This document shows, piece after piece, positions 33,136 to 37,358 of a stretch of 64,000 nucleotides of DNA (positions are counted from its first letter, which is position 1; every line of letters begins with the position of its first letter). A model generated the notes under the pieces. That model was not told the DNA's origin. It made no database searches and saw nothing but the letters and a program-made list of their open reading frames with translations. The position numbers and the translations under genes were made by a program. Source of the stretch: Levilactobacillus bambusae (GTDB taxonomy: Bacteria; Bacillota; Bacilli; Lactobacillales; Lactobacillaceae); NCBI RefSeq assembly GCF_003124125.1, contig NZ_QCXQ01000002.1, forward strand, positions 198,968 to 262,967, given 5' to 3'.

Positions 33136-33251
33136 GTGCGACCCCAATCTGATCCCTGCGGTCAACCACAATTTGACACTATGCCCAAGAACCAGGCATA
33201 GTGTCAAATTGACGTTCATCCTCAGGATCAACCGATTGGGGTCGCACTCTA
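33136..33251. repeat. Modular inverted-repeat element, copy 1
   Basis: Outer arms GTGCGACCCCAATC (33136-33149) and GATTGGGGTCGCAC (33234-33247) are exact, inner arms AATTTGACACTATGCC (33169-33184) and GGCATAGTGTCAAATT (33195-33210) are exact 16-mers, and GATCC/GGATC pair between. The minus-strand reading has TAGAGTGCGAC at its start, TGAGGATGAACG and TGGTTGACCGCAGGGATC, all shared with other copies at 41155 and 56570. It sits between the divergent promoters of the PspC gene and the helicase operon. It is not an intrinsic terminator (no T run), nor an IS. Confidence 0.75.
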
Positions 33252-33265
33252 ATTTCGAACACACG

Positions 33266-33293
33266 TTTGCTTTTTCGTCAGATAAGCTATAAT
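33266..33293 (+). promoter_or_regulatory. Promoter of the helicase operon
   Basis: TTTGCT (33266-33271), 16 bases, and a perfect TATAAT (33288-33293), 25 bases before the helicase start. Confidence 0.6.
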
Positions 33294-33318: not shown

Positions 33319-35709
33319 ATGACTAAGATTGGGGTCCGCGAGCTGGTTGAATTAACGTTGCGGTCGGGAGATTTAAATAGCCACACGGGTAGCCAAAACA
33401 CAGCACAGCGGGGCGCACAAATCCACCGAATGCTGCAACGAAATCGATCCGATGCCTACCAAAAAGAATACTACCTAGAAGAAGCGGTCACCCTAAACGG
33501 CGTTGAGTACCTCATCAACGGCCGGGCCGATGGTGTCACTCTTGCGGGCAATAATTCCGAAATTGAAGAAATCAAAACCTCCGATGTGCCGTTTGACCAA
33601 ATTGCGCCGGCCACTTTAACCCTCTATTGGGCTCAGGCAAAGGTCTACGCTTACCTATTGATGGCCGCCGAGGGAATGACTCAGGTCACCCTTGCACTGA
33701 CCTACTACCAAACGAATACGAATGAAACGACAACGACCCACCAGACCATTACCCAAACCGAAGCCGAAAGCTTCTTCAACCAGGTTATCGGCATCTTTGA
33801 GGGCTGGTTAAAGTTCCGGGCGGAAATCATTGCCGACCGGACCCCGTCGATTCAAGCCTTGCAGTTTCCGTTCGGTCACTACCGACCGGGGCAGCACGAA
33901 CTTGCAGCGGCCGTCTATAAAACCATCCTTACCCGGAAGCGCCTGTTTGTTGAGGCCCCAACGGGAACTGGAAAAACAATTTCCACCCTCTTTCCCACGA
34001 TTAAGGCCATTGGGGAGGGGGAAATCGACCGGCTCTTTTACCTCACAGCTAAGCAGAGTACACGCCAAGTTGCGGAAGATGCCGTTGACCTTATGGTAAG
34101 CCGGGGGTTAAAGATCAAGAGTATCACCCTCACCGCTAAGGATAAAATTACCTTTCCGGAAGAAGTGGATCTTTTGCCTGAGGAGAATCCGTACATGATT
34201 GGGTACTACGACCGGTTGCAAGACGGGTTGCAGGATATGCTGCGTAACCAGTACCAGTTAACCCGGCCCGTGATCGAGCACTTCGCGCGCAAACACATGC
34301 TGGACCCCTTTGAGTTTTCTCTCGACGCTAGTCTGCTATGCGACGTGATTATTTGTGATTATAACTACCTCTTTGATCCCCGGGTCCACCTAGAACGCTT
34401 TTTTTCTGAACCGGATGACCGGAACTTTTTCTTAATCGATGAAGCCCATAACTTAGTCAGTCGGTCGCGTGATATGTACTCCGCAGCCATCGACAAGGCC
34501 CCGTTAGTCGACCTCATCACCCTCGCAAAAAAATCAGCTACCGCTAGTCGCAAACTGAAGACGGCAATGACAAAACTCAAGAAGGCGTTTGATCAAGTAG
34601 CGGCGCCCTTAAAGCGGGAGCACCGCACTGAATGGACGGGTGAAACCCAGCCCCCAGATTTTGATCACGCCCTCGGTCGATTTACCGATACGGTTTCTGA
34701 GTGGCTACCCGATCAGCCGAACGATGACTTTACACAGGCGGTTTTAACCTATTTTTTTGCCGCCAACACCTACGTCAAAATTAGTGACTACTACAATGAG
34801 ACGTACCGGATGCACCTCACATTAAGTGATCATAACGTCATCATTAAGCAAGTCTGCCTTGATCCAAGCCAGTACCTGTCAGAGTCGCTTAAATTAGGCC
34901 ATGGGGCCGTTCTTTTTTCTGCCACTCTATCACCCGTTGACTACTATGAAACGGTGTTAGGCGGAACTAAGGAGGCCCTTAGCTACCAATTACCCTCACC
35001 CTTTCCCCCAGCCCATCAGGCATTGTACATCACCAACTACATTCAAACCACCTATAAACAGCGTGACGCCAATCAAGGCCGCATTATTCGGGCCATTAAA
35101 TCGCTCACCGACGGCAAACTAGGAAACTACCTGATTTTTTTACCGTCCTACACTTATTTATTGACGGTGAGTGAGGCTTTTCACGATGCCTTTCCGGATG
35201 TTTCTATGCTGACTCAACAAGCCACCATGACCGAGGCAGACCGGGAACGGTTTCTCAATGAGTTTAAGGCCGAACCCGAGCAAACCTTAGTGGGGTTTGC
35301 GGTTCTTGGGGGCAGCTTTTCCGAGGGAATTGACCTGAAGGCAGACCGATTAATCGGGGTGGGGATTGTTAGTGTCGGACTCCCGGGAATGAATCCGGAA
35401 ACCGACTTGCTCAAAGACTACTTCGATAAGCAAAACGGGAATGGTTTTGCTTACGCTTACCAGCTTCCCGGTCTAAACAACGTTTTTCAGGCTGCCGGCC
35501 GCTTAATTCGGGGCGTCCATGATCATGGAATCGTGTTACTCATGGACCAGCGGTTTACCCAATCCCGGTACACCACCCTTTTTCCCCAGCATTGGCGCCA
35601 CTACCAGAACCTGTACCGCCCGGATCAGTTGACCCGAGTCGTCACTGATTTCTGGCAACCATCATTTACGGAGGACCCAAATCCTAATGAAAACGAAACT
35701 CACGCTTGA
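33319..35709 (+). CDS. RecB-like nuclease fused to XPD/DinG-type ATP-dependent DNA helicase
   Basis: 796 residues from ATG 33319 (GGAGGG seven bases upstream). Residues 1-175: a Cas4/RecB-like nuclease with RGAQIH (about 32-36), GRADGV (Asp71), EEIK (Glu84, Lys86) and QAKVY (106-110). From 185: superfamily 2 helicase with R-P-G-Q (Q motif, about 189-192), Walker A APTGTGKT (213-220), DEAH (374-377), and helicase motifs V/VI (SFSEGIDLKADRL; QAAGRLIRG). In related XPD/DinG-type helicases four Cys bind a 4Fe-4S cluster; here the corresponding places read EENPYMIGYYDR and MLDPFEFSLD, without Cys. DNA repair or defence role is inferred. Overlaps the next gene by 23 bases. Confidence 0.88.
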   Translation: MTKIGVRELVELTLRSGDLNSHTGSQNTAQRGAQIHRMLQRNRSDAYQKEYYLEEAVTLNGVEYLINGRADGVTLAGNNSEIEEIKTSDVPFDQIAPATLTLYWAQAKVYAYLLMAAEGMTQVTLALTYYQTNTNETTTTHQTITQTEAESFFNQVIGIFEGWLKFRAEIIADRTPSIQALQFPFGHYRPGQHELAAAVYKTILTRKRLFVEAPTGTGKTISTLFPTIKAIGEGEIDRLFYLTAKQSTRQVAEDAVDLMVSRGLKIKSITLTAKDKITFPEEVDLLPEENPYMIGYYDRLQDGLQDMLRNQYQLTRPVIEHFARKHMLDPFEFSLDASLLCDVIICDYNYLFDPRVHLERFFSEPDDRNFFLIDEAHNLVSRSRDMYSAAIDKAPLVDLITLAKKSATASRKLKTAMTKLKKAFDQVAAPLKREHRTEWTGETQPPDFDHALGRFTDTVSEWLPDQPNDDFTQAVLTYFFAANTYVKISDYYNETYRMHLTLSDHNVIIKQVCLDPSQYLSESLKLGHGAVLFSATLSPVDYYETVLGGTKEALSYQLPSPFPPAHQALYITNYIQTTYKQRDANQGRIIRAIKSLTDGKLGNYLIFLPSYTYLLTVSEAFHDAFPDVSMLTQQATMTEADRERFLNEFKAEPEQTLVGFAVLGGSFSEGIDLKADRLIGVGIVSVGLPGMNPETDLLKDYFDKQNGNGFAYAYQLPGLNNVFQAAGRLIRGVHDHGIVLLMDQRFTQSRYTTLFPQHWRHYQNLYRPDQLTRVVTDFWQPSFTEDPNPNENETHA

Positions 35710-36388
35710 TCTTGAAAGTACCCTTTACCAATACTGTTTGGATAATGACGCCTACGCCGTTGAGGAAGTCAGTATGCCCGATGATCAAGGAATTGTTGAT
35801 ACCCTCAGCTATAAAGAATTAGCGCCTGGCAACATTGAGTGGCGCTGTTACGAACTGAAGGTCACCAAGAATGATTTTCACTCCACCGCAAAACTCTCCT
35901 TTGTTGGCCACTTTAACTACTTCGTCCTGACCCCTGAACTATACCAGGAGGTGCAGGATGAAATTCCCGCTAACGTTGGTGTCCTGACCTACCGTCCCTA
36001 CGACGCTGAGTTAGCCGCTGACGCCGAGTACCCACCGTTAGCTCCCGGTTACCTGACCATTGAAAAAACGGCCCGGCGAAGGGACCTGCAAGTTCCGGAA
36101 GACGAGTTAATCTCGGCCTTTATTGCTTCAATGGGTCGTGAGGTGAATAAGGCGAAACGGATGGCGACCGGAATCGACCAGTTTTCCACCGAAAAGCTCT
36201 ATAAAGCCCTCAAGCGCCGAAACCAGCACTACCAAATTTACGATCCCGAAGCAAACCTCTACGACCGATTTATTGATGATATGCAATCCAGCGCAGTAAC
36301 GGCACTGCAAGAGGAGATTGACGCCCTAAACGAAGACGTTTTCCAGCTCAAACTGGCCCTCAAGAAAGCACGTGATGCCGGTGCTTAA
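35687..36388 (+). CDS. PD-(D/E)XK-like protein of unknown function
   Basis: 233 residues from ATG 35687; GGAGG lies 12 bases upstream inside the helicase gene. Asp38 in IVDTLSYK and WRCYELKVT (Glu56, Lys58) give the D...E-x-K pattern of a restriction-endonuclease-like fold; FVGHFNYFVLTPELYQEV follows as core strand and helix. The C-terminus (about 195-230) is an acidic coiled coil. Related phage and repair proteins (MmcB-type) have similar short nuclease cores, but I cannot name the family. Coupled with a helicase before and sce7725-family gene after, overlapping both. Confidence 0.7.
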   Translation: MKTKLTLDLESTLYQYCLDNDAYAVEEVSMPDDQGIVDTLSYKELAPGNIEWRCYELKVTKNDFHSTAKLSFVGHFNYFVLTPELYQEVQDEIPANVGVLTYRPYDAELAADAEYPPLAPGYLTIEKTARRRDLQVPEDELISAFIASMGREVNKAKRMATGIDQFSTEKLYKALKRRNQHYQIYDPEANLYDRFIDDMQSSAVTALQEEIDALNEDVFQLKLALKKARDAGA

Positions 36389-37304
36389 TTACTACCCTTA
36401 TTTTCGGGGACGCCAGTACGACTTAATCGCTCTGAGGGAAGCGGTAGAAAGTGGGGACCTATCTCCCCACCTAATTCCCATTCTGGAACCCGTTAAGGAC
36501 TCGAGCGGCCTACTGAAAACGGTACGGGCCTTTATTAAGCGGGATCACCCGATTGCCATCATTGTGAATCCCCAGGTTAGCCGCTACCTCTTTACCACCA
36601 AAAAACGGTTCCCCCTAACCCCACTAATGGACCAGTCGCAGGTCATTCCAACGGCCATCCTTACGCCTCAGTTCGTCCCCGATCTGCTTCGCCATTCGCC
36701 GCGTCAGTCCACTATGATGCTAGTCGATTCAGCAAGGGCGCTCCGGGTCGCCCAGGAACATAACTACCTTGCGCTCGCAGATCAGATCATTATTCCCCCG
36801 GAGGCCCGAATTCGGCGAAGCATCCAACAACCTAAAATTCGGTTAGTCGATCATTTTCCGCTCCGTGACCACACGTCGGATTACGCTGAGTTAGCGGATG
36901 AATTCTTTTCCGATGACTTAACGTTCGCCGAGATGATGGGGTACACTGGTTTTAGCGATTACAGTATCATGGGGCACCACTACTTTGAACGGGGCCATGC
37001 CTCCCGGGCCATCGCCCTCCACATCGTCTACGCCCACCCTGATGGTGGTACGCGCATCCACCATTTCGTATCGGACAGTAACGCCACCTTCACAAACCCC
37101 AAGCAAAAGTTTTTTGAGGCCCTCGCAAAGTTATCCCAGTGGGATGCCAAGCAAGCGACCATTAATCAAACTAAACCCTTGCAGACCCTGTTAGCCTACC
37201 AGGACAGTCACAAGTTTCCGGGTCTGGGGACCGTCAAAAAATTAATGATTGAGCATCAGTTAATCATTTTTTCCAGGTTATTAGATCAGTCTAAGTCCCA
37301 CTAA
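36375..37304 (+). CDS. sce7725 family protein
   Basis: 309 residues from ATG 36375; GTG 36372 is the alternative. N-terminal YYPYFRGRQYDLIALREAVE is the recognisable signature of the sce7725 family as I remember it (YYPYLRGKQFELxALRE). The rest (LIPILEPVKDSSGLLKTVRA; IAIIVNPQVSRY; MMLVDSARALRVAQ) is alpha/beta with no signal or membrane segment. Family members are usually found beside sce7726-type nuclease-like proteins in accessory regions and have no known activity. Here it is the third gene of the helicase/nuclease operon. Ends in a strong terminator (37299). Confidence 0.75.
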   Translation: MPVLNYYPYFRGRQYDLIALREAVESGDLSPHLIPILEPVKDSSGLLKTVRAFIKRDHPIAIIVNPQVSRYLFTTKKRFPLTPLMDQSQVIPTAILTPQFVPDLLRHSPRQSTMMLVDSARALRVAQEHNYLALADQIIIPPEARIRRSIQQPKIRLVDHFPLRDHTSDYAELADEFFSDDLTFAEMMGYTGFSDYSIMGHHYFERGHASRAIALHIVYAHPDGGTRIHHFVSDSNATFTNPKQKFFEALAKLSQWDAKQATINQTKPLQTLLAYQDSHKFPGLGTVKKLMIEHQLIIFSRLLDQSKSH

Positions 37305-37358
37305 ATAACGATCACCACCCCGTTAGAACCCTAACCGGATGGTGATCGTTATTTAGTG
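37299..37358. terminator. Bidirectional terminator, 19-bp perfect stem
   Basis: CACTAAATAACGATCACCA and TGGTGATCGTTATTTAGTG are exact reverse complements with GTTAG/CTAAC as inner stem. The TAA of the sce7725 gene (37302-37304) lies in the left arm. Confidence 0.9.

Follow-up and report, generated by a model that had tools for sequence, protein, structure and literature searches.

An EndoDinG-like nuclease-helicase gene and a PD-(D/E)XK/sce7725 gene pair form a predicted SOS-controlled operon in Levilactobacillus bambusae

According to the available passages of PMC9122126, the gop, beta and cII genes of P4 give Escherichia coli protection from lambda and P1, and gop becomes toxic when beta is absent. 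PD-lambda-2C, whose relatives include a P4 phage antitoxin, is necessary for defence (available part of PMC9519451), and an integrative element of Pseudomonas aeruginosa carries genes for a RES protein, sce7725 and sce7726 (available part of PMC9394441). Passages from three papers that name sce7725 or sce7726 give a function to neither, and we found no paper on RES/HEPN/PD-DEXK defence. Fusions of a PD-(D/E)XK nuclease and DinG are named EndoDinG in a review of DinG-like proteins, the available text of which gives a CCCC iron-sulphur (Fe-S) motif as conserved in them (PMC11981726). Here we analyze a three-gene operon of Levilactobacillus bambusae that combines an EndoDinG-like gene (gene 1) with a PD-(D/E)XK-type gene (gene 2) and an sce7725 gene (gene 3). 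It lies within a 64,000-nucleotide stretch of contig NZ_QCXQ01000002.1 (the window), in a genome of 1.97 Mb.

The three genes overlap on the plus strand, gene 1 and gene 2 by 23 bases and gene 2 and gene 3 by 14 bases, exactly as an initial annotation made from the sequence had described (Table 1). They are more than a chance grouping, because among 201 Lactobacillaceae genomes genes 2 and 3 are adjacent in all 47 that carry the pair, and gene 1 is directly upstream in 41 of the 47. The parts, the pairing, the co-occurrence and an SOS-type box upstream were established by computation. Our preferred reading, to which we give a probability of about one half, is a DNA-processing operon that is SOS-inducible and whose mobile nuclease/sce7725 pair acts together with, or upon, a resident EndoDinG-like enzyme. 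The probabilities given to this reading and to its rivals overlap and do not sum to one. We infer complex formation, induction and the direction of control as follows. DNA damage or phage attack would relieve LexA, and the three proteins would then be made together. A complex would arise between the gene 2 and gene 3 proteins, as may also be the case for sce7726/cII and sce7725/Beta. Where DNA is broken, stalled or foreign, this complex would recruit, license or restrain the helicase-nuclease, and that DNA would then be unwound and cut. The DNA-processing or defence role suggested initially is plausible; the benefit may be repair, immunity against invading DNA, or both.

Table 1. Coordinates in the window of the three genes and of the predicted control elements around them.
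Feature	Position	Strand	Description
Gene 1	33319..35709	+	EndoDinG-like PD-(D/E)XK nuclease-helicase, 796 amino acids (aa), ATG start, without Fe-S cysteines
Gene 2	35687..36388	+	PD-(D/E)XK-type protein, 233 aa; phrog_2776, distantly MmcB-like
Gene 3	36375..37304	+	sce7725 family protein, 309 aa; perhaps distantly related to the P4 Beta family
Predicted LexA (SOS) box CGAACACACGTTTG	33256..33269	+	9/10 positions of CGAACN4GTTCG, 49 nucleotides (nt) before the gene 1 ATG
Candidate -10 element TATAAT	33288..33293	+	found by eye, just behind the SOS-like box
Inverted repeat, likely terminator	37299..37358	strand-neutral	28-nt arms, 93% complementary, overlaps the gene 3 stop codon

The sequence motifs pointed out initially, GAQIH, GRAD, EEIK and QAKVY in gene 1 and D38...ELK in gene 2, are all present. 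As judged from family profiles, a structural match and conserved residues, gene 1 encodes an EndoDinG-like fusion of a PD-(D/E)XK nuclease with an XPD/DinG motor, in which all catalytic residues are kept, and this agrees with its first description as a RecB/Cas4-like nuclease joined to an XPD/DinG-type helicase. In Pfam it matches Helicase_C_2 (3.1e-40) and PDDEXK_1 (6.6e-4; 20.1 bits, just under the cut-off of 22). Residues 3-760 match PDB chain 9kqh_A ('DNA 5'-3' helicase') with an E-value of 1.1e-151; we found no paper naming entry 9KQH. The nuclease residues His36, Asp71, Glu84, Lys86, Gln106 and Tyr110 and the helicase residues Lys219, Thr220, Asp374, Glu375, His377, Gln724, Arg728 and Arg731 are invariant in 125 of 125 aligned rows, a count that may include the window sequence twice; the gene 1 alignments comprise open frames of ~700-870 aa, with identical ones dropped. 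The helicase part (residues 182-760) also matches the PADLOC profile typeIV_DinG (PDLC01439, 1.8e-115). We rejected an assignment as CasDinG, because this match covers the helicase part only and the nuclease fusion and the 9kqh match favour EndoDinG.

The Fe-S cysteine positions 278, 285, 290 and 329 of gene 1 hold Thr, Leu, Asn and Asp. All four cysteines are missing in 94 of the 97 Lactobacillaceae rows, the window included, whereas all four are present in 26 of the 27 rows from other Bacillota and three in the remaining row. A further 16 relatives from outside Lactobacillaceae all have CCCC, and three added Lactobacillaceae rows do not. The exceptions within the family are loci L105 and L106, which retain all four cysteines, and L113, which retains one. 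Two gene 1 relatives (L101 in G134:C7, and one in G181:C9) sit in open frames of 916-956 aa and carry an unexplained insertion that follows residue ~426; in both genomes the pair lies elsewhere.

Gene 2 carries, at sequence level, the PD-(D/E)XK active-site pattern (E...D...ExK): Glu10, Asp38, Glu56 and Lys58 are invariant in 100 of 100 aligned rows, consistent with the endonuclease-like core proposed for it. Its sole strong family match is phrog_2776, a family of unknown function (9.1e-22), which aligns over residues 1-179. Homologues are found in 54 phage records; among the matches listed (30 of the 54) most are hypothetical proteins and some are annotated as endonuclease or MmcB-like DNA repair protein. 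Gene 2 itself has no match to PF06319 (MmcB-like) up to E = 1, and a relative from a prophage region reaches 17.2 bits against a cut-off of 22. Six prophage or viral copies of gene 2 (L127-L129 and L243-L245) are without sce7725; the first three are in prophage-like regions of Lactobacillaceae, with no sce7725 neighbour. The initial annotation had noted that sce7725 usually accompanies an sce7726-type gene. Gene 2 has no NCBIfam match up to E = 1 and scores 1.3% against the sce7726 profile in hhalign, so we rejected it as sce7726 (NF033832). Yet it occupies the slot of sce7726/cII beside sce7725, by position and with homology unsupported.

Gene 3 is, by its profile score, a true sce7725 protein, as first read: residues 6-302 match the NCBIfam family sce7725_fam (NF033831) with 281 bits against a cut-off of 60 (1.5e-83). 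The AlphaFold2 model, in which strands and helices alternate, has a predicted local distance difference test (pLDDT) score of 95.1 and a predicted template modelling (pTM) score of 0.93. Gene 3 itself matches neither PF14350 (Beta_protein) nor the PADLOC profile PD-Lambda-2_C; among 46 aligned sce7725 relatives, nine weakly match the former (best 8.9e-6) and 17 the latter (best 8.4e-4). A direct scan of genome contigs using query P0003 alone gave no match.

With only strong gene 2 matches counted, the 201 Lactobacillaceae genomes comprise 106 that carry gene 1, 47 that carry gene 2 and 51 that carry gene 3. We excluded three weak gene 2 matches, a second one in each of G195 and G172 and a single one in G114; the loci concerned (L127-L129) look prophage-like. 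The pair is present in 47 of the 106 genomes with gene 1 and in 0 of the 95 without it. The separation between gene 1 and the pair is -28 to +47 nt in 39 of the 41 linked cases, with ~875 nt extra in the other two (G081 and G108). These two belong to genus g13, where the gap between gene 1 and gene 2 (L105 in G081:C15, and G108:C6) holds, in L105, an extra open reading frame (ORF) of 274 aa; gene 1 of L105 is one of those that keep the Fe-S cysteines. A contig scan with gene 2 found 183 relatives; in the best of these, 80 named loci, gene 3 adjoins gene 2 in 80 and gene 1 lies upstream in 73. Genes 2 and 3 overlap in 82 of the 96 loci (out of 100) where the gene 3 start could be placed, by exactly 4 nt in 73. 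In a sample of 108 Lactobacillales genomes gene 2 occurs in 12 and gene 1 in 28; all 12 also have gene 1, so that the pair is in 12 of 28 genomes with gene 1 vs 0 of 80 without, the 80 including members of the same family as the window. The 348 Bacillota genomes contain gene 1 in 33 and sce7725 in eight, the window genome included in both counts, whereas for gene 2 the window genome gives the sole match apart from a weak one in G455.

Gene 1 is widespread on its own (106 of 201 genomes, 59 of them without the pair), and the operon is therefore a core helicase gene plus a two-gene module, not one indivisible system. Of the initial idea of a single set, the constancy of the pair stands, but gene 1 is independent of it. 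Genes 2 and 3 are separated from the helicase gene in six of the 47 pair genomes of the own family, where linkage is thus the rule, but in 10 of 10 in family f135, where gene 1 is found at a distance of 7 kb to 200 kb or else on a different contig; gene 3 is beside gene 2 in all ten, with gene 2 in two pieces in G629. (Codes such as g1 and f135 are those of the genome collection for genera and families; we infer that g1 is Levilactobacillus.) One rival explanation is that the genes are unrelated, the pair having been inserted behind the helicase gene and kept by inheritance with no joint function. The 59 genomes with gene 1 and no pair fit this, as does a gene 1 tree with only six changes of pair state. 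On the other hand, none of the genomes searched has the pair but lacks gene 1, including those in which the two are unlinked and those of another family, and the spacing to gene 1 is close or overlapping in nearly all linked cases. We consider this explanation quite unlikely.

In the helicase-only loci L110, L119, L123 and L124, gene 1 ends shortly before a lactonase gene, and in the window and in L108, L111, L125 and L130 the lactonase gene lies beyond the pair. Since it follows gene 1 with or without the pair, the pair was acquired or lost at this site downstream of a gene 1 that was already in place. Other helicase-only loci have differing neighbours, so that the variable neighbourhood expected of a general housekeeping repair helicase is seen in part. 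The pair can also move without the helicase gene, as its placements in a gene 2 tree (built by a quick method that gave a long-branch warning) suggest: two unlinked Lapidilactobacillus copies are sister to a Lactiplantibacillus copy with support of 84, and the copy on an Enterococcus faecium plasmid is nearly identical to that in a Listeria record. The plasmid is typed as conjugative, and the helicase gene is not among the 25 features shown; the Listeria record is an unverified phage record of 10.5 kb.

Such mobility would be expected if genes 2 and 3 were a self-contained anti-phage or toxin-antitoxin-like module, with the helicase gene a mere frequent landing site or shared promoter. Kinship to known systems points the same way. 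In five Lactobacillaceae genomes (G009, G021, G171, G178 and G195) sce7725 genes sit between genes of two further clusters, and hidden Markov models (HMMs) identify the upstream partner as sce7726 in two of two tested and the downstream one as a RES-domain protein in three of three (L091, L092 and L094). In contrast to the pair genomes, three of these five (G009, G171 and G178) are without gene 1. Six other Bacillota loci (L251-L256) resemble this layout; RES was judged there, and in L211-L213, by eye from similar N-termini among the matches listed. The viral contig loci L230, L232 and L233 have an sce7726-like ORF and sce7725, with no RES-like third ORF by eye. Triplets of the type sce7726-sce7725-RES thus recur in Bacillota (L091-L095 and L251-L256). 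All 13 aligned sce7726 proteins match the PADLOC profile cll, the sce7726 profile scores 97.3% against P4 cII (1.7e-11), and in the P4 record cII is annotated as an sce7726 family protein and beta as a beta family protein. By these profile comparisons sce7726 is homologous to P4 cII, and the triplet is likely a relative of gop-beta-cII in which a RES protein replaces gop. The weak matches of sce7725 relatives to PF14350 and PD-Lambda-2_C, together with the protection and defence reported in the available parts of PMC9122126 and PMC9519451, extend this argument. Against it, no third gene, toxin-like or other, is common to the 11 unlinked pair loci read (among the loci inspected for it, L259, L260, L296 and L299 have a GNAT-like ORF after the pair), the pair is present in all eight listed g1 genomes, no defence name occurs among eight flanking ORFs, and the pair never appeared without gene 1 in the genomes searched. 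A self-contained module seems doubtful to us.

Control of the operon by LexA is part of the preferred reading. The initial annotation did not contain the SOS-type box upstream of gene 1, which follows the Gram-positive consensus CGAACN4GTTCG as given in Table 1 of PMC9578287, the part of that source available. We found no paper on CGAAC-type SOS boxes of Lactobacillus. The window genome has 18 sites (19 strand hits) of the pattern CGAACNNNNGTTYR vs 9 hits for a reversed control. The pattern precedes ORFs read as lexA, recA, dinB and umuC-like, and other sites are inside genes (e.g. L323, L324 and L331); these names, like dnaE, parE, mraZ and gmk, were read by eye from translations and not by HMM. 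A similar box is found before Levilactobacillus operons. Boxes with at least 8/10 positions precede 24 of 39 pair operons vs six of 59 helicase-only genes (P = 8.9e-8, kinship ignored), and the reversed control gives four of 39 and one of 59. The comparison took in all 59 helicase-only genes and, out of 41 linked operons, the 39 that remain when the two with a fragmented gene 1 (G003 and G159) are omitted; two of the fetched stretches were short. By genus, the box precedes 7/7 pair operons in g1, 6/8 in g12, 6/7 in g38, 3/5 in g4 and 2/3 in g21. Among unlinked pairs, 18 of 24 have their own box within 120 nt vs 70 of 2400 shuffles (2.9%), in five of seven lineages as grouped by hand; L259 and L260 are near-duplicates and L215 and L216 closely alike. 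The operon is predicted from these sites to be probably LexA-controlled (SOS). Elsewhere in the window genome, two SOS-type boxes 27 nt apart (L328/L329, G000:C1:339692-339732) are flanked on one side by a gmk-like gene and on the other by a divergent ORF of 111 aa with unknown function.

The SOS boxes before the operon and before unlinked pairs would also suit ordinary SOS repair, with gene 1 as a repair helicase-nuclease, genes 2 and 3 as accessory repair factors and no role in immunity. The synteny seen in several genera beside genes for a lactonase and a PerR/Fur-type regulator, and the annotation of some phage homologues of gene 2 as MmcB-like DNA repair proteins, are also in line with this explanation. 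It accounts less well for the presence of sce7725 relatives in mobile cargo, such as the P. aeruginosa element with RES, sce7725 and sce7726 described in the available part of PMC9394441, and of gene 2 homologues in phages and prophage-like regions. We regard pure repair as unlikely.

Several observations weigh against the SOS-inducible joint system that we prefer. The box is missing from the pair operons of genera g20 (0/5) and g13 (0/4) but precedes six helicase-only genes (4/8 in g14, 1/1 in g11 and 1/1 in g3). On the gene 1 tree the association of box and pair is unsupported: five independent contrasts give means of 1.4 for, 1.2 against and 2.4 with no difference. The Fisher tests of co-occurrence (1.8e-16 and 7.5e-8) ignore kinship, and reduced genomes may simply lack both gene 1 and the pair. 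Inheritance within genera seems to account for most occurrences of the pair, so that its lasting linkage to gene 1 may be inertia. Plasmid and phage or viral records bear the pair, and their host genomes were not examined. Gene 2 is a putative nuclease by its motifs, and the likeness of sce7725 to P4 beta is weak (hhalign 9.5%, N-terminal motif only).

The operon boundaries agree in part with the single promoter and single terminator proposed initially. A promoter scan of the operon region found 7 sites vs 6.8 expected, which is chance level, but a TATAAT element can be recognized by eye behind the SOS-like box, and GGAGGG precedes gene 1. At the other end the terminator scan did not list the inverted repeat of Table 1, which is nevertheless strong. 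Just upstream of the SOS box there is a 112-nt imperfect palindrome (33136-33247); as a repeat family it was rejected, since it matches itself alone in the genome. The eight flanking ORFs scanned include polyamine transport, an SDR oxidoreductase, the lactonase and a PerR/Fur-type regulator; among the rest, one has a weak TIGR00267/MbfA-like match and two are matchless. A defence island around the operon was rejected, with no defence name among these eight; the PADLOC scan did not extend to the whole window.

A widespread helicase-nuclease is joined here by a module that is distantly related to parts of anti-phage systems. It is possible, though we put it forward only tentatively, that the operon serves Lactobacillales as an immune or genome-surveillance system induced by DNA damage. 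A phage-type PD-(D/E)XK subunit and a Beta-like sce7725 protein would then be the switch of a housekeeping EndoDinG-like helicase-nuclease. If true, a type of pair that elsewhere accompanies a RES toxin would have been re-wired to a DNA-degrading motor, in a lineage without the motor's Fe-S cluster. One branch of sce7725 is now tied to predicted SOS control and a defined helicase-nuclease. Together with the links of sce7726 to P4 cII and, weakly, of sce7725 to Beta, this would open its function to tests in food bacteria that are easy to handle. Lactobacillaceae, with their Fe-S-less EndoDinG-like enzyme, could serve as a natural test of the role of the cluster in XPD/DinG helicases.

Compared with known systems, gene 1 has the N-terminal PD-(D/E)XK nuclease (H, D, E, K) and the XPD/DinG motor of EndoDinG as described in the available text of PMC11981726, but it is without the CCCC Fe-S motif and stands in an operon with genes 2 and 3. 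With CasDinG of type IV CRISPR it shares the helicase part that matches the typeIV_DinG profile, whereas it carries a nuclease fusion and no Csf family was found among the eight flanking ORFs scanned. The phrog_2776/MmcB-like proteins of Bacillus and other phages align to residues 1-179 of gene 2, which differs from them in a longer C-terminal part and a constant sce7725 partner. In the sce7726-sce7725(-RES) sets a smaller PD-(D/E)XK-like gene closely precedes sce7725, as in the window, but the partner in the window is of the phrog_2776 type, there is no RES gene, and occurrence is tied to gene 1. The operon differs from gop-beta-cII of P4 in having no cII match, no further gene (gop was not profile-searched), no PF14350 match in gene 3, another gene order and a helicase; it resembles that system, as described in the available passages of PMC9122126, in that cII is an sce7726 protein and the beta family is weakly matched by nine of the 46 sce7725 relatives.

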